64,000 nt of DNA, taken from NCBI GenBank assembly GCA_030447745.1, contig JAUJOH010000002.1, forward strand, positions 227,848-291,847. The letters are read 5' to 3'. Numbering within the stretch: the stretch's first letter is position 1; every line of letters begins with the position of its first letter. The notes under the pieces are model-generated. The model was not told where the DNA came from. It did no database searches and saw only the letters and a list, made by a program, of their open reading frames with translations. The stretch comes from Chloroflexota bacterium. GTDB lineage: Bacteria; Chloroflexota; Limnocylindria; Limnocylindrales; CSP1-4. Of the stretch, positions 23,980-60,320 are shown one piece after another. Position numbers and translations under genes: made by a program.

Positions 23980-26900
23980 TCATCCGCCGTGCCCCGGACG
24001 CGGCGCCGACTCGCCGGTGGAGGGCCGTTCGATCGCGGATCGGCGTGCCATCGGCGCCAACGGCGCGGAGACCCGGGCGGCGCCCAACGCCCGACGTGCC
24101 CGCTGGCGTCGGACCAGCGTCGCGATCCCGGACCCGATCGACAACGCCATCAGCGCGAGGACGCCGAGGAGCTCCGGGATTCCGGGTTTGCCCGCGCCGA
24201 GCGGCGCGGCAGTCGCGATCCTCATGGGGCCGGTGGTCGGTCCGCCGGAGCTGGCTGGTTCCGCGAGCGGCAGCGGTGCCTGGAGGTCGCCGACGCGCGC
24301 GATCCCGGCGGGGTCCGACACGACGACCGCCAGCTCGTCGCCTCGTTGCTCGACGCGACCCGTCGCGTTGAGCGGGTCGTCCAGCTCGATCAACGGCAGC
24401 AGCTCCGCCGCCTCGCCGACCAGCAATACGAGGCCTGTCGCCGTTCCGTCATCCAACCGCACGCCGTCGGGCGCGAGCTCGACGACGAGCCCACCGACAC
24501 GGACGGTCTCGCCGACGTGGTCAGCGAGATCGGCGATGTCGACGTCGACGGCGGCCGGATCGGTCGCTACGGTGGCCGCGGGGCGGCCCCCACCAGCGCC
24601 GCCGTTCGACCCACCCGCACCACCACGTCCGCCTGCACCACCACGCCCGCCCGTGGAACCGATGCCGGCATCCGATGTCCCGCCTGGCGCGGCCACGGTG
24701 CCGGGTCCCACGGTGACATCGCCCGGCTCGCGCGGCGTGACCGCGAACCGCCGGTCGGTGGCCGACGGATGCGGCCGTCGGACGATGCCGGCGACCGTGG
24801 CCCGCGCACCCTCGCGAAGCGTGGCCGAGGGGATGCCGGCGCCGCTGAGACCGGCGATCGGGACGCGGCCGTTGCCGATCTCGAGCTCGGCCCGCCATCG
24901 GCTGCCCATCTTCGTGACCTCGACGATCGATCCGCTGACGCGCACCAGCCGCCATTCGTAGGCCTCGCCCGGCGCAACTCGGAGCTCGAGCGGACGCCTG
25001 GGACTGCCGCTCCCACCGGCGACAACGGCGGTTGCCCTGATGCGCGGCGCACCGTAGGCGCGACCGACCGTGCCGGTCACGAGCACCCGGTCTCCCTGCG
25101 ACGGCGCCCGCGTTCCGGCCGGCACGAGGACCTCGACCGCGGCGGTGTCGTCCTCGACGACGAGCCGCCGTCCGCTCCCGTCGAGGAGCGTCGAGCCCGC
25201 GGTCACCGTGGCCCGGATCCGGACCTCGCCCTCGCGCACGAGCAGCGCCCGGGCGATCGTGAGCGTCTGGGCGGATGACCCACCCGGCGGTCCGGACGCT
25301 CCCGGGCTGCGCGTCTCGTCCGGCCGTTCCGATTCGGGCGCCGCGAGCAGCCGGATGTCCGCCTGGTCGCGGAGCCACACCCGGTATCCGTCGAGCCTCC
25401 CCTTGCGGCTCGCTCGCTGCCCCGCCACGCCGACGATGCGGTACGTCCCGCCGTCTGCCAGCGCCGCGGGACCGATGCCGCTTGATGCGTCGGCGACCAG
25501 CCGGACGCTCGCGCCATCCGCGGCGAGCAGGTCGACCGTCAGGTCACCACTCGATGACTTCCGGACGCCGCCGTCGACGGTGCCCTCGACCGTGACGAGC
25601 CGGCCCTCGGTTGCCTCGCCGAGGTCGTCGCCGTCGACGTCCGCGGGACGCGGCAGCGCCGCCGTGCCGACCGACCGAAACCCTGCCGCGTCCGGCCGGA
25701 TCTCGAGCTGACCGTACGGATCATGCAGCGTGCCAGCCACGGTGACGACCGCGCCGCGAGCTGGTGGGCGCGCGTCGTCGGGCACGCGGACGACGATCCC
25801 GCCGGTCACATCCTGGATCGCAACGAGCGAAGGACTGCCGAGCCGGCCGAGCTCCGCCGTCACGACGCCGCGCACGGCGACGCGCGATCCGACGGGCTGC
25901 GCGCGAGCCGCGGCGATCGTGTGCTCGGGTGACACGCTCGGGCGCGGCGTCGCGGTGGGGCGCGGCGTCGCGGTCGGACCGGGCGTCGCGGTGGTCCGGG
26001 GCGTCGCGGACGGCCCAGGGATCGCCGTCGGTGGCGCGGACGACATCGTCGGCGACGGCAGAGGTGTCGGCGACGGCGTCGGGTCCGGGACCGGGATGAT
26101 GGCAAAGTTCGTCGGCTCGGTGACGTGGACGCGGTAACCGGACAGCCCCGTGCCGCTGCTGTCGCGCTGGCCGACGGGTCCCGTGACGGCGACGAGCGTC
26201 CCCGCCGGCACCGCGGCGCCGGCAAGCGCCTCGGGCGCCACGATCGCGCGGGCGCTCCCCGTCCCGTCGTCGATCCACAGCCCGAGCCCGTCGGCGAGCG
26301 ATGACGGCGCTCCGACCGTCGTGCCCGAGAAGTGCACGAGCGTGCCCTCGACCGGCTCACCGATGCCTGCCGACACGACGTCCAGCGGCACGTTCGGACC
26401 GCCGGTCCCGAGCGACACGAGATCCGCCGTCGCGACGCGGAGCGTCACCTGTCCGTACCGGCTGTCCACCGTGCCGCGGGCCCGGACGTTCGTGCCGGCG
26501 GGCAACCCGTCCGCGACACTGGTGTCGAGATAGAGCGCGATGCCCGCCTCGGCGTCCTGGACGAACGCCCCGCGGCCGGCCTCGAGCGCGCCGAGCCGCG
26601 TCGTGAGCGTTGCCTCGATGGTCGCGTCCGTGCCGACCGGAAGTGCTCGCACGACGGCAACCGGAACCACTGGCTCGGCGGGTGACGGCGACGGCGTCGG
26701 CTCGCTACTCGGGCTCGGAACCGGGGTTGGGCTCGGGGCGGGTGACGCGCTGGCGGCCGGCGACGAGGCGCTCGGCGCGGGTGTCGGCGTTGGCGTGGGC
26801 GTGGCGGTCGGTGCAAGCGTCGGTGCAGGCGTCCGTGTCGGCGTCGGCGTTGGCGTGGGCGTGGCGGTCGGTGCAAGCGTCGGTGCAGGCGTCCGTGTCG

Positions 26901-27813
26901 GCGTCGGCGTGGGCGTGGGCGTGGCGGTCGGTGCAAGCGTCGGTGCAGGCGTCCGTGTCGGCGTCGGTGCGGGCGTCAGGGAGGCACTCGGCGTCTCGGT
27001 CGGGACGGGGGTCGGCCCCGGCGTCGCCCTCGAGGCGGTCGGCGTTGGATCGGGGGTCGGGAGGATCGAGGGTCCGGGCGTTGCCGTGGTCGCCGGGGGC
27101 GAGGCGCTCGGTGTGGCGGTCGCCGCGGGCGCCGACGGTGACGGCCCGCTCGTCGGCGGCGGCACGGGCGATCCGGGCGGCGGCGGCACCGGAGGCGCAA
27201 GGAGATTCTGCGGCGACGGCGACGGCTGGACGAACCAGTCCGTTGCGTTGTCGTTCGTGTCGCTGCCGTTCCCGGCCGCGCCGCCGGGTCGCCGCTCGGC
27301 GCTGGAGCCGGGCGGCGGTGCCGCAGCCGCGGCACCCTCGACGAACGCGTTGCTCGCATCGCCCCATCCGACGGCGTCGATCGGCGCTCCGCCGGTCGTC
27401 CGGAGCACGAGGGCGCCACCGGTTCCCGCCAGCCCGCCGGTGTACGTCGCGTCGCCGATGGCTGCGTACGCGCCGCTCGAGTTCGCCACCAGCAGCCGGC
27501 GGCCGGGCGCCAGCGATCGTGCCTCCGTCCAGGCCGCCTTGCGCGTGACCGTCGAACCGGAGCCGGTCACGTACACGACCTCGAGCCCGGCAAGATCGAT
27601 GATCTCCGGACCGGCGTTGACGAGCTCGACGAACTCGTCGCTGGCGGAGGCGCCACCCGTCATCAGCTCCGACAGGAGCAGCGTCGAGACGCCCCAGTCG
27701 ACGTCGGCAAGCGGAGCCGGCGCGGGCCGCGGTGCGCCGGCCCCCGCCGCGACCGACACGAGGATGGAGACGAGCGAGAGCGCGGCTACCGCCGCACGCC
27801 GGGCGCGAGCCAT
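23980..27813 (-). CDS. large surface-anchored lamin-tail/OB-fold repeat protein
   Basis: This 1,277-residue exported protein begins with a signal peptide (1-27). A lamin-tail domain follows (about 41-150, [25 protein letters not shown]). Thr-Pro linkers with a 20-residue repeat occupy about 283-344. At least three OB-fold-like modules each carry a VAVxGxVxxxYGxxxxR pattern (about 380-470, 640-730 and 850-930). A Gly-rich stretch precedes a C-terminal membrane span (about 1213-1234) followed by basic residues. Lamin-tail and OB modules often accompany secreted nucleases or nucleic-acid binding, but no catalytic domain is visible. The start is preceded by GGAGG. Function unknown. Confidence 0.85.
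26783..26967. repeat. three tandem copies of a 60-bp repeat inside the surface-protein gene
   Basis: Identical or near-identical 60-bp units encode [20 protein letters not shown] on the minus strand. There are about 3.1 copies, with one change within the full units. The near-identity suggests recent copy-number expansion of the Thr-Pro stalk. Confidence 0.9.
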
Positions 27814-28902: not shown

Positions 28903-31900
28903 TCACCCGAGCCGGCGCATCCCGGCCTGACCCATCTGGCGGATGCCTTCCGGCGGCTCGGGTCCGCCGACGGCAGCCGCGGCGTCCACGACCGGCCGGA
29001 CCTCCCGGGCCACGACGTTGACCACCTCACCCTCACGCTGCAGCTCGCCGTCCACGAGCAGGAGCGCGTGGCGACGGACGATGCCACGCAGGCGCGCCCA
29101 CGTGTCCGGCCACAGGGTGACGTTGACCATTCCGGTCTCGTCCTCGAGGGCGAGGAAGACCGTTCCGCGGGCCGTCATCGGGTGCTGGCGGGTGACGACG
29201 AGGCCGCCGATCCGGATCTGGCCGGGTCGCCGCGACCCGAGCTCGGCGTTCGTGACCGCCCCCAGCCGCTCGAGCGCGCCGCGGTAGAGCCCGACGACCT
29301 GCCGACGCGCGTCCAGCCCGACGACGGCATAGGCGTCCCCGATGCGCTCCGTCTCGGTGATCGCGGGCAGCTCCGGCGCCTCCGTCGGGGGCAACCGGAG
29401 GTCCATCGGCCGAACGCTCGCCTCGCTCGCGACGCGACGCGACAGACTCGCAGACGCGGCGCCGCGTCCTTGAGCTCCGTCCGGCACCCCTCGAACCCGA
29501 CGTCCATCGATCCGTCCGCGCACCGTGCCGGCCACCTCGCGGAGCTGCCACAGCAGCTCTCGCCGCTGCCGTCCCAGCGAGTCGAGCGCCCCGACGCGGA
29601 TCAGGCGCTCGATCACGTCCTCGGGCAGCGCCGTGCGCTCCACGAGGTCGGCGAGGCTCGTGTACGGCCCCCGCTCGAGCTCGGCGTCGAGGAGCGCCTC
29701 GGGCTGCTCGCCGATCCCCTTGACCATCGACAGCCCGAGGCGCACGCCCCAGCCGGTCGCGGTCTCCGCTGCCCACCGGTCGCGCGCCCCGGCGCGCGGC
29801 ATGAGGCAGGCCGGCGAGCGGACCGGTCGCGGCCGCGCCGTCACGCCGCAGCCATCCGGCAGCGGCTCCCCCACCGCGTCGTCGCCCGAGCCGTCGCCGG
29901 CCGCGCCGGCCATCGCCCAGCCCGGCCGGCCCACCCATTCCGTCGTCGTCTTGTAGCGCGACGCGTTGACGTTGACCGGGAGGACCGTCACCCCGTGCCG
30001 CTTGGCGTCGTTGACCAGCACCTCGACCGGGTAGAAGCCCATCGGCTGGGCGTTGATCAGCCCGACCAGGAACTGGGCGGGGTAGAAGAGCTTGAGGAAC
30101 GCCGACTCGTAGGCCGTCCTGGCAAAGGCCGCGGCGTGCGACTTCGCAAACCCGAACGAGGCGAACGCGGCGCACTGCCGGAACAGCTCCTCCGCGTCGT
30201 CGCGGGCGAGGCCGTGCTTCGCGATACAGCCCTCGACGAACTCGACGTGGAGCTTCTCCATCTCCCGCTCTGAACGCCACGTGCCCATCGCCCGCCGGAA
30301 GGCATCGGAGCCGGCCGGCGTGAAGCCCGCGACCTCGATCGCGATCCGCATCACCTGCTCCTGGTAGAGGATCACGCCGAGGCTGTCGCGCAGGATCGGC
30401 TCGAGGCTCGGATGGAGATAGGTCACCGGCTCGAAGCCCTGCTTGCGCCGCAGGTACGGGTGCACGGCGTTGCCCTGGATCGGACCCGGCCGGATGATCG
30501 CCACCTCCACGACGAGGTCGTCGAGGCTTGCCGGTCGCGACTTCGGGAGCGTCTGCATCTGCGCCCGGCTCTCGACCTGGAAGACCCCGACCGTGTCGGC
30601 CGCCTGGAGCATCGCGAAGACCTCCGGGATCTCCTCCGGCAGGTGATCGAGGTCGAGGCAGACGGCACAGTCATGCTCGATCAGCTCCATCGCCTCGTCC
30701 ATCGCGGCGAGCATCCCGAGGCCCAGCAGGTCGAGCTTGATCAGCTTCAGGGTCTCGACGTCGCGCTTGTCGTACTGGGCGACGACGCGGTCGGGCATCG
30801 TGGCCCGCTCGAGGGGCGCGATGTCGATGAGCGGCGCGGCCGTGATCAGCATCCCGCCCGAGTGGATCGACAGGTGGCGCGGGAAGCCGTCGATCCGGGC
30901 GCAGAACTCGAGCCACCGCTCCCAGTCGGACAGGCCACGGGTCGATCCGCCGCGGGGCTGCGGCGGCGGATCGGGCTCCAATCCTCGGGCCGATGGCGTC
31001 GCGGAGCTTCGCCTCGGACCTCGGACGGCCCCGACGGTGTTCGGATCGTTCGGCCGGCCCGTCCCGCGCCCGGCCCGGAGCCACCGGACGCTCGCCGGCG
31101 TGTCGCCCGGTCCTCCCTCGTCCTCCGCAGCGCCCGGCTGGATCCCGGGTGGCGAGTCGGGCGCCCATCGGGTGGTCACGGACGGGGCCATGCCGGCGCG
31201 CGCCGCATCGTCCGGACGCGGCAGTCTGCCGTCGCCTGCCTCCCCGGCGCCGCCGGTTCGGACCCGCCCGCCGCGGGCGTGGTTGAGCTGACCCATCGCG
31301 TCGGTCAGCCCGCGCTTGCCGGCGAGGGCGACCGCTGCGCGCGCTTCGGGCGCCTCGCCGTCCCCGGGCCGTCGGAAGAACTCCGCGAACCCGCCGTCCG
31401 CCTCGAGGTCGCGCCGGACCATCACCGAGTCGTACGTCTCGAGCGCCTTGGCCACCCGGTCGACGAGCGGCCGCGGGAACCCGAGCGCGTAGCCGACCTC
31501 GCGGACCGCGGACCGCGCCCGGTACGTCACGAGGTTGCAGACCATCCCGGTGTGCTCCTCGCCGTAGCGCTCGTAGACGTACTGGATCACCTCCTCGCGC
31601 CGCTCGGAGCTGAAGTCGATGTCGACGTCGGGATAGGCGGTCCGGCCCTCGTTGATGAACCGCTCGAAGAGCAGGTTGTGGCGGATGGGGTCGACCCGGG
31701 TGATCCCGAGGACGTAGGCGACGATCGAGTCGGCGGCGCTCCCGCGACCCTGTGCCGGGATGCCGCGCGACTTCGCGAAGCGCATCAGGTCCCAGCAGAT
31801 CAGGAAGAACTCGGCGAGCCGCGTCCGCTCGATCACGTCCAGCTCGTGGGCCAGCTGCCGGACGACCGCCGGCGTGAGCGGGTGGTAGCGCCGCCGAGCC

Positions 31901-33033
31901 CCCTCCTGGCAGAGCTCGACGAGGTAGCTGAACGGCGTCTCCCCGGCCGGCACGGCGAACCCCGGGAAGCGGTACTGCTCGAAGCCGAGGTCGACCGAGC
32001 ACGCCGAGGCGAGCTCGTGCGCATTGGCTAGACCCGCCCGCCATGCCACCACCGTCGCCCGATCCTCCGACGGCGGCATCGTCGCGAGCTCGGCACCGGA
32101 CTTCAGGTAGGACTCGCTGTCGGGCCGGCGGAGGTCACCGAGCTCGTCGAGCGTCCGCCCGTGGCGGATGCCGGTCAGGACGTCGTGCAGCTCACGCCCG
32201 TCGGGCCGCGCGTAATGGACGTCGTTGGTGACGACGACGGGCAGGCTCAGCTCCCGGGCGAGGGCAGCGACCTCCGCCACGAGCCAGTCGTCCTCCGGCA
32301 CCAGGTGGTGCTGGAGCTCGAGGACGAGGCCGGCGGTGGCGATCCCGTCACCGGTCGTCCGGAACCGCGACGCCAGCCACTCCGCCGCGGCCCGGGCGCC
32401 CTCACGATCACCGACGCGGAGACGCCGTGCGATCTCGCCGTCGCGGCACCCCGACAGCGCGACGAGACCCTCGGTCTGCTCGGCGAGGAGCGCGTGCGTG
32501 AACCGCGGCACGTCCTTCGTTCCCGCGAGGTTGGCCCGCGAAACGAGCCGGCACAGGCTTCGGTAGCCGGTCGTGTCGCGGGCCAGGAGCACGAGATGCG
32601 GTCCGCGGTTGCGGTCTCCGATTCCGCGCAGATCCTCCTTGACGGCGTCGCGGTGCCCGGGGAGGCGCTGCCGCTCGGCACGGGGTCGAACCGGTCGACC
32701 CTCCGCGACCTGCCCGCTGATCGCGTCGACCCCGCCCCGCGAACGGGCAGCGCGTCCCCGCCGGCGACGCCGCGGCGCAATGACCGTGCCCGCCACGTCC
32801 GGGACGGCCGCGTCGAGCAGGTCGATCTCGAGCCCCACGACGGGGTGCACTCCGGCGGCCTCCGCCGCGGTGACGAACCGGACGGCGCCATACAACCCTC
32901 CGTGATCCGTCACCGCGAGACCGGTCAAGCCGAGCTCGACCGCCCGTTCTACCAGCTCATCCGGCGTCGACGCGCCGTCGAGAAACGAGAAGTTCGTGTG
33001 GAGGTGGAGCTCGGCGTACGGGACGCTCGTCAT
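28903..33033 (-). CDS. dnaE2: error-prone DNA polymerase DnaE2 (ImuC), with large insertions
   Basis: This C-family translesion polymerase has 1,376 residues, versus roughly 1,050-1,100 usual. A PHP domain (YAELHLHTNFSFLDGAS) is followed by the palm with YPDVDIDFSSERREEV, then GRGSAADSIVAYVLGI, a tandem HhH region and a C-terminal OB fold (IRIGGLVVTRQHPMTARGTVF). Four low-complexity insertions account for the excess (about residues 85-140, 590-700, 1095-1160 and 1235-1270). The second contains a stem-loop repeat also found at 54.4 kb. ATG 33033 fits the family start. It works with ImuA/ImuB in damage-induced mutagenesis and is controlled by the SOS box at 33081-33094. Confidence 0.95.
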   Translation of the reverse strand: MTSVPYAELHLHTNFSFLDGASTPDELVERAVELGLTGLAVTDHGGLYGAVRFVTAAEAAGVHPVVGLEIDLLDAAVPDVAGTVIAPRRRRRGRAARSRGGVDAISGQVAEGRPVRPRAERQRLPGHRDAVKEDLRGIGDRNRGPHLVLLARDTTGYRSLCRLVSRANLAGTKDVPRFTHALLAEQTEGLVALSGCRDGEIARRLRVGDREGARAAAEWLASRFRTTGDGIATAGLVLELQHHLVPEDDWLVAEVAALARELSLPVVVTNDVHYARPDGRELHDVLTGIRHGRTLDELGDLRRPDSESYLKSGAELATMPPSEDRATVVAWRAGLANAHELASACSVDLGFEQYRFPGFAVPAGETPFSYLVELCQEGARRRYHPLTPAVVRQLAHELDVIERTRLAEFFLICWDLMRFAKSRGIPAQGRGSAADSIVAYVLGITRVDPIRHNLLFERFINEGRTAYPDVDIDFSSERREEVIQYVYERYGEEHTGMVCNLVTYRARSAVREVGYALGFPRPLVDRVAKALETYDSVMVRRDLEADGGFAEFFRRPGDGEAPEARAAVALAGKRGLTDAMGQLNHARGGRVRTGGAGEAGDGRLPRPDDAARAGMAPSVTTRWAPDSPPGIQPGAAEDEGGPGDTPASVRWLRAGRGTGRPNDPNTVGAVRGPRRSSATPSARGLEPDPPPQPRGGSTRGLSDWERWLEFCARIDGFPRHLSIHSGGMLITAAPLIDIAPLERATMPDRVVAQYDKRDVETLKLIKLDLLGLGMLAAMDEAMELIEHDCAVCLDLDHLPEEIPEVFAMLQAADTVGVFQVESRAQMQTLPKSRPASLDDLVVEVAIIRPGPIQGNAVHPYLRRKQGFEPVTYLHPSLEPILRDSLGVILYQEQVMRIAIEVAGFTPAGSDAFRRAMGTWRSEREMEKLHVEFVEGCIAKHGLARDDAEELFRQCAAFASFGFAKSHAAAFARTAYESAFLKLFYPAQFLVGLINAQPMGFYPVEVLVNDAKRHGVTVLPVNVNASRYKTTTEWVGRPGWAMAGAAGDGSGDDAVGEPLPDGCGVTARPRPVRSPACLMPRAGARDRWAAETATGWGVRLGLSMVKGIGEQPEALLDAELERGPYTSLADLVERTALPEDVIERLIRVGALDSLGRQRRELLWQLREVAGTVRGRIDGRRVRGVPDGAQGRGAASASLSRRVASEASVRPMDLRLPPTEAPELPAITETERIGDAYAVVGLDARRQVVGLYRGALERLGAVTNAELGSRRPGQIRIGGLVVTRQHPMTARGTVFLALEDETGMVNVTLWPDTWARLRGIVRRHALLLVDGELQREGEVVNVVAREVRPVVDAAAAVGGPEPPEGIRQMGQAGMRRLG
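30944..31014. repeat. stem-loop plus 36-base dispersed repeat, copy A, inside dnaE2
   Basis: Inverted 10-bp arms (GATCCGCCGC at 30944-30953 and its complement at 30963-30972) are followed by a 36-base segment at 30979-31014. That segment matches copy B at 54463-54498 at 33 of 36 positions, and copy B also follows a hairpin. Here it is translated in the dnaE2 frame (ATPSARGLEPDPP). Confidence 0.7.
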
Positions 33034-33075
33034 GGCACGACACCGCCCTCGCGCGAGTGATCTGGGTCTGCCACA

Positions 33076-33094
33076 ATGATAGAACATCCGTTCT
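33076..33094 (-). promoter_or_regulatory. SOS (LexA) box and -10 of dnaE2
   Basis: AGAAC-ATCC-GTTCT (33081-33094) matches the GAACN4GTTC LexA consensus. On the minus strand it abuts a TATCAT -10 (33076-33081), leaving a leader of about 36 bases. LexA bound here would block the promoter. Confidence 0.8.
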
Positions 33095-54437: not shown

Positions 54438-54498
54438 CGCCCGCCGGTCTGCCGGCGGGCGTCAATCCTCGGGCGAATGGCGTCGCGGGGCTTCGCCT
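54438..54498. repeat. stem-loop plus 36-base dispersed repeat, copy B
   Basis: A perfect 10-bp hairpin (CGCCCGCCGG, loop TCTG) at 54438-54461 is followed by the 36-base segment 54463-54498, which matches copy A inside dnaE2 at 33 of 36 positions. Here it is non-coding, between the small membrane gene (ends 54554) and the HAD gene (starts 54339). The hairpin may act as a terminator. Confidence 0.7.
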
Positions 54499-54553
54499 TC
54501 GGCCCTGGAGGGCGACAAGCCGCAAACCGCTGAGGTTGTCTCCTCGGCCGACG

Positions 54554-59040: not shown

Positions 59041-59072
59041 CGTGCAAGCGTACGTTGCCCGGCGATGCGCAC

Positions 59073-59109
59073 CGGCCGCATATCCAATGCGCGTCGGCCG
59101 CATATCCAA
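59073..59109. repeat. two copies of a 22-bp repeat, psuG side
   Basis: CGGCCGCATATCCAA occurs at 59073-59087 and 59095-59109, with period 22 and TGCGCGT between. The same unit, inverted, recurs at 60241-60274. It lies upstream of psuG, so an operator role is possible. Confidence 0.8.
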
Positions 59110-59183
59110 CGCCCGGGCTCGCCGCGCCGGCCCGGCCCGTTCCGGATGCTCGAGCAGGGTCGAGCCGCAGCTCCGCGCCAGGC

Positions 59184-60137: not shown

Positions 60138-60240
60138 CACGCGAGCATAGCGAGCGGCGCGCAAGGTCCTGAGCTCCCGGGCGGTAGCGAGGCGCGGCGC
60201 GTGCCCGCGCCGCCGGTCACGAGCGCCGCCCCCGGCCGCC

Positions 60241-60274
60241 GATATGCGGCCGATGCGCATTGGATATGCGGCCG
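60241..60274. repeat. two copies of the 22-bp repeat, tkt/psuK side
   Basis: GATATGCGGCCG (60241-60252, partial) and TTGGATATGCGGCCG (60260-60274) are the reverse complement of the units at 59073-59109, again with period 22. They lie between psuK and the divergent tkt gene. Relative to psuG and tkt transcription, both blocks have the same orientation. Confidence 0.8.
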
Positions 60275-60320
60275 ACGCGCAAAACCGCCGTCGTGCGGCT
60301 GCTGTCTCGGCTGCCCGGCC

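Follow-up and report, generated by a model that had tools for sequence, protein, structure and literature searches.

Among the short palindromic repeats of bacteria, REPs lie close behind genes and at times inside replication and repair genes (PMC3733652). The CGTC-tagged REP super-family, which includes Rickettsia RPE-4/RPE-6 and Neisseria dRS3 (Di Nocera et al., 2013; PMC3733652), carries a terminal unpaired CGTC/TGTC/CCTC tag, an 8-9 bp stem starting with A-T pairs, a 4-5 nt loop and a CCA tail, and is not described from Chloroflexi in that work; GTAG repeats are listed there for Chloroflexi, with a GTAG-23 family in T. roseum. The repeat described here resembles the CGTC super-family in its small palindromes at gene 3' ends and between co-directional genes, in having no known dedicated transposase, and in its intragenic copies, which in the super-family are enriched in replication/repair genes. 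However, CGTC occurs inside our hairpin, near the tip, and not as a terminal tag; CCTC falls near the 5' end within a paired region; the first pairs are T-A/A-T, then C-G and C-G; the stem is longer, interrupted and of 15 pairs; the loop is GGA, the CCA tail is missing, and partial dimers run head-to-tail rather than head-to-head. GTAG REPs and REPINs with their RAYT are likewise short structured mobile repeats in DNA flanking genes, yet our consensus starts AATCCTCGGG, with no GTAG at the hairpin foot, and here the element is ~84 nt long, occurs in tens and not hundreds of copies, and has no Y1 transposase. Rickettsia palindromic elements of the RPE-1 type, compared by description, similarly insert in frame in housekeeping proteins at tolerant places (here dnaE2, dnaG and birA), although in an unrelated lineage, and the majority of our copies are intergenic. 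Bacterial MITEs (PMC10969869) share the non-autonomous habit, short length, patchy copy number and, possibly, weak terminal inverted repeats; in our case neither a target-site duplication nor a parental transposon was found. The repeat belongs, as a separate family, to the broad REP/RPE-like kind. Where the original prediction named a REP/MITE-type family, a dispersed, hairpin-forming, REP/MITE-like family is indeed present, whereas the lack of a consistent target-site duplication and of a Y1/RAYT transposase leaves a classical MITE or a REP/RAYT system unsupported.

The window, by which we mean the whole 64,000-nt stretch of DNA analysed, lies in contig C23 of the host genome (G000), a 2.43 Mb MAG that is 77% complete, and contains two copies of the repeat, the second of which sits between two minus-strand genes and is antisense to both. 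The relevant features are:

28903..33087, minus strand: dnaE2-like DNA polymerase III alpha ORF, 1394 aa, with an in-frame copy in its hypervariable linker (ORF list)
30944..30977, plus strand: GC-rich hairpin over the conserved dnaE2 residues (D)PPPQPRGGST, outside the repeat (relatives' sequences)
30978..31029, plus strand: core of the dnaE2 copy, 52 nt; covariance-model match of 77.8 bits, E 1.3e-18 (G000:C23:258825-258876)
31030..31060, plus strand: degenerate 3' part of the dnaE2 copy, its YTGAGGKTGCC end unrecognisable (comparison with full-length copies; the nhmmer match ends at 31030)
54438..54461, plus strand: GC-rich hairpin ahead of the second copy, outside the repeat family (upstream flanks differ among all copies)
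54462..54513, plus strand: core of the second copy; covariance-model match of 70.2 bits, E 2.2e-16 (G000:C23:282309-282360)
54514..54545, plus strand: 3' part of the second copy, terminus CGCTGAGGTTGTC (nhmmer full-length match 54463-54545)

The likeness that first drew attention to this pair is confirmed, in that the segments CAATCCTCGGGC..GCTTCGCCT agree at 33 of 36 positions (81% over 58 nt), and a GC-rich hairpin does precede each of them. Those preceding hairpins had been taken for part of the repeat, but they are unrelated to the family: other copies lack them, the one in dnaE2 is conserved host coding sequence (PPPQPRGGST), and the conserved hairpin lies inside the segment itself. The in-frame reading of the dnaE2 copy was correctly predicted; the copy is antisense to dnaE2, and the minus strand of ORF 28903-33087 reads through the core in frame as ..SSATPSARGLEPDPPPQP.., the predicted peptide across the copy spanning SSATPSARGLEPDPP. 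Relatives without the repeat read ..PPPQPRGGSTRGLSDWERW.., or similar, at PPPQPRGGST. The site is not the essential domain gap once supposed, and is instead a linker, hypervariable throughout the family in both its length and its sequence; dnaE2 homologues were found in 36 of 37 genomes. This linker, between FFRRPG and GGSTxGLSDWERW, carries other low-complexity inserts elsewhere in the family (L114-L131). Model search of dnaE2 orthologues in 14 related loci returned no element, except for a weak 18-bit match at L125. Hypervariability of this linker in all relatives means that the pre-insertion sequence is not exactly readable; the copy is best understood as an in-frame insertion that dnaE2 tolerates and that would presumably have been neutral.

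Alignment of 14 copies, which required few gaps, defines the conserved hairpin core as 52 nt with 15 base pairs and a GGA loop, folding as (((..((.((((.((((..((...))..)))))))).))..))) and following the pattern TCC..GG.CCGA.GGCG..GC GGA GC..CGCC TCGG.CC..GGA, an imperfect hairpin. In a full-length copy of ~84 nt the core is succeeded by a variable stretch and a conserved 3' end, YTGAGGKTGCC. The termini appear weakly inverted (GGAATCCTC / GAGGKTGCC), with ~7/11 positions agreeing by eye between GGAATCCTCGG and the reverse complement of YTGAGGGTGCC, and several copies are head-to-tail partial dimers, in which a partial core of 38-39 nt is followed by a full core. Covariation was examined on the same 14 copies and later on a set of 50 different copies drawn from many genomes. 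In the larger set 95.6% of cells are paired, 65 cells differ at both partners where shuffles give 20, both-side changes occur in 8 pairs, and the outermost core pair takes all four Watson-Crick types: UA (24), AU (21), CG (1) and GC (1). Sliding the pairing partner by 1 to 3 columns lowers the score from 0.251 to 0.02-0.06, and one column is already enough to make the structure collapse. The repeat is the hairpin itself, with a stem strongly backed by compensatory changes.

A covariance model made from the 14-copy alignment detects 27 copies in the host genome when the threshold is E<=1.3e-4 and 29 when it is relaxed to E<=0.05, so that the genome-wide count by which the family was to be judged does not bear out chance similarity in a small set. 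Simple pattern scans point the same way: a 34-nt pattern with <=3 mismatches occurs at 10 places in the host genome, a 23-nt pattern at 17, and the reversed control of each at 0. The same model finds 22 copies in a same-genus relative and 10-16 in some other genomes. Copy number is patchy inside one family of one Chloroflexota class, presumably Candidatus Limnocylindria: pairs from the same genus hold 10 vs 0 (G030/G004), 10 vs 0 (G033/G011) and 15 vs 0-1 (G128/G002) copies, and in a class-wide sample of 121 genomes none from another family reaches E<=1e-6. Copy-rich members of the family are G000, G001, G025, G030, G033, G114, G118 and G128, and members devoid of copies include G004, G011 and G022. 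Scanning 84,980 species for the exact core gave 24 real matches, all of them in Chloroflexota MAGs. Viral contigs contained no exact-core match, and phage carriage was rejected. Four Bacteroidales matches were set aside; they comprise the same 26 nt only, from related rumen genomes, with the rest of the element absent, and look like chance likeness to conserved coding sequence, presumably the coding end of a putative argD-like aminotransferase, as recognised by eye.

Neighbouring genes were located, in the stretches around the copies, with a simple codon-based gene caller, their names being our reading of the translated ends. The majority of copies lie between co-directional genes, for example ilvB-ilvN, ilvN-ilvC, atpA-atpG, glmM-glmS, glmS-acpS, secY-adk, DUF177-rpmF, greA-lysS and KH-rimM, among others, and a few lie directly 3' of tRNA genes. 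Fifteen of 25 sense copies begin at -2 to +3 nt relative to the stop codon of the preceding gene; sense copies outnumber antisense ones by about 28:9, with a p-value of 0.0026 that is optimistic because a few loci common to G000 and G001 were counted twice. Within genes, the copies in dnaE2 and dnaG are antisense and in frame, that in birA is sense and in frame, and at the 3' end of ilvN the last codons have been replaced by a repeat copy.

Orthologous loci provide both filled and empty sites. The ilvN-ilvC junction holds the element in G000 and G030 and a dimeric copy in G026 (L064), and retains its overlapping stop/start in G001, G013, G033, G011, G025 and G022; ilvB-ilvN is filled in G000 alone; and greA-lysS carries a copy in G000 but not in G030, G013, G025 or G011. 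Searched with the model, only the ilv locus of G030 is positive (80 bits) among the orthologous loci, besides two chance-level 18-bit matches. Because sites filled in G000 (ilvB-ilvN, ilvN-ilvC and dnaE2) are empty in relatives, including members of the same genus, the element has moved. Other sites, in or at dnaG, birA, glmM-glmS, DUF177-rpmF and secY-adk, are common to G000 and G001, and the family therefore has older members too.

What is observed directly comprises the repeat family, its covarying structure, the occupied and empty orthologous sites, the patchy distribution and the in-frame copies. We consider that these probably represent a lineage-specific, non-autonomous mobile palindromic repeat family of ~84 nt, present in one family of a Chloroflexota class and inserted repeatedly at new sites. 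Insertion would fall mostly directly behind stop codons in tight operons, where it should do least damage, and occasionally inside genes without closing their reading frame (dnaE2, dnaG, birA and the ilvN 3' end). The hairpin may be recognised as single-stranded DNA by an enzyme acting in trans, and selection may shape the choice of sites by leaving copies where they are harmless.

Weighing against this explanation, the core is much better conserved than the DNA beside it at intergenic sites that G000 and G001 have in common, a pattern not expected of inert passengers. The cores at these sites are mostly 82-97% identical (77% at L165/L150) and the adjoining spacer is unalignable; between L165 and L150 one stem pair is GC in one copy and CG in the other, a compensatory change. 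This core conservation could also stem from recent gene conversion or re-insertion. Because the core is kept at shared sites and the neighbouring intergenic DNA is not, some copies may alternatively be functional RNA elements, and the repeat might then be a cis-acting RNA element behind operon genes (an intercistronic stabiliser, a processing/termination hairpin, or the binding site of a common regulator), kept by selection. The sense bias of ~3:1, the position at the stop codon and the copies directly behind tRNA genes are likewise in keeping with such a role. We nevertheless judge it unlikely, given that the host genes (ilv, atp, glm, rpmF, adk, lysS, dnaG, birA, dnaE2) form no regulon, about one quarter of copies are antisense, the element is absent from most related genomes, with same-genus genomes at 10 vs 0, and the repeat has no match in Rfam at the gathering level, nor any at E<=1. 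There is a modest chance that both descriptions apply in succession, in that many copies, once mobile and spread by a non-RAYT enzyme, were later retained behind operon genes in the role of functional RNA, their hairpin preserved partly by compensatory substitution as the spacer was lost. In that event a single bacterial family would have made a mobile repeat into a standard RNA part between its cistrons.

A model without transposition, in which most of the spread comes from short transferred segments that recombine homologously or illegitimately (through gene conversion or natural transformation), appears quite improbable as a general account. The ilvN-ilvC junction is filled in three genera with similar downstream sequence, and there recombination of the filled junction, rather than independent insertion, could be responsible. 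At another copy (L167, 5383-5520; G000:C4 near 28214) both sides carry the opening 35 bp of atpG, with about six differences, all synonymous, as if diverged alleles had been joined, hinting that recombination brought two alleles together. Set against these cases, the flanks of the repeat are unrelated in each genome, and most copies have no common flanking tract.

Mobility in the preferred reading of a non-autonomous mobile family also has to be reconciled with the lack of a transposase (PF01797 being the one tested) and of a consistent target-site duplication. The duplication sought around the copies did not materialise, with no enrichment across 41 full-length copies; a single copy (L079, ~1490-1600) is flanked on either side by a candidate duplication, TTACTC[AG]T. 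A scan with just the 3' end motif, aimed at a parental transposon, gave matches mostly near background, and a parental transposon sharing just that end was rejected. If the MAG had lost, or failed to assemble, the gene for a REP-associated (Y1) tyrosine transposase, the repeat could be a classical REP family that this enzyme mobilised, which would agree with the small palindrome, its adjacency to gene ends and its occasional in-frame copies, as in REPs (PMC3733652). This reading is very improbable and already largely refuted: Y1_Tnp (PF01797) has no match in G000 or nine relatives, five of them copy-rich, in a search whose control was positive in E. coli and others, and the repeat has no GTAG or terminal CGTC tag and tens of copies in place of hundreds. 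Chance likeness of GC-rich sequence, for all that the window is 72% G+C, has a negligible claim and is refuted by the reversed controls (0 vs 10 and 17) and by covariation, with model E-values down to 1e-19.

The family appears to be an undescribed palindromic repeat of an uncultured Chloroflexota lineage, a search of the literature having yielded no description, and it offers clean occupied and empty sites with tens of copies per genome. Operating without the usual transposase, it adds to the cases in which one may ask how REP-like repeats that lack RAYTs move, and raises the question of whether inserted hairpins are later used at operon junctions or as protein linkers.

Other repeats were encountered in passing. 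Three genomes contain another dispersed repeat, GCGTTGTCGCCTCCGCGCGCTCGCTCACGCAC..GTGCGCTCGCTCGCGTGCTCGGC.CCGCCTTG (L172, L066, L151, L169, L145), within which the main element seems to be nested at L172 384-500 (minus-strand coordinates; G000:C18 near 102220). The window itself contains, at 26720-27031, a 12-bp tandem array within an ORF, encoding a GVGVGV-like stretch, and, at 59066-59117 and 60230-60281, a 52-nt inverted repeat with GGCCGCATATCCAA motifs, whose arms are 85% complementary and lie ~1.1 kb apart.
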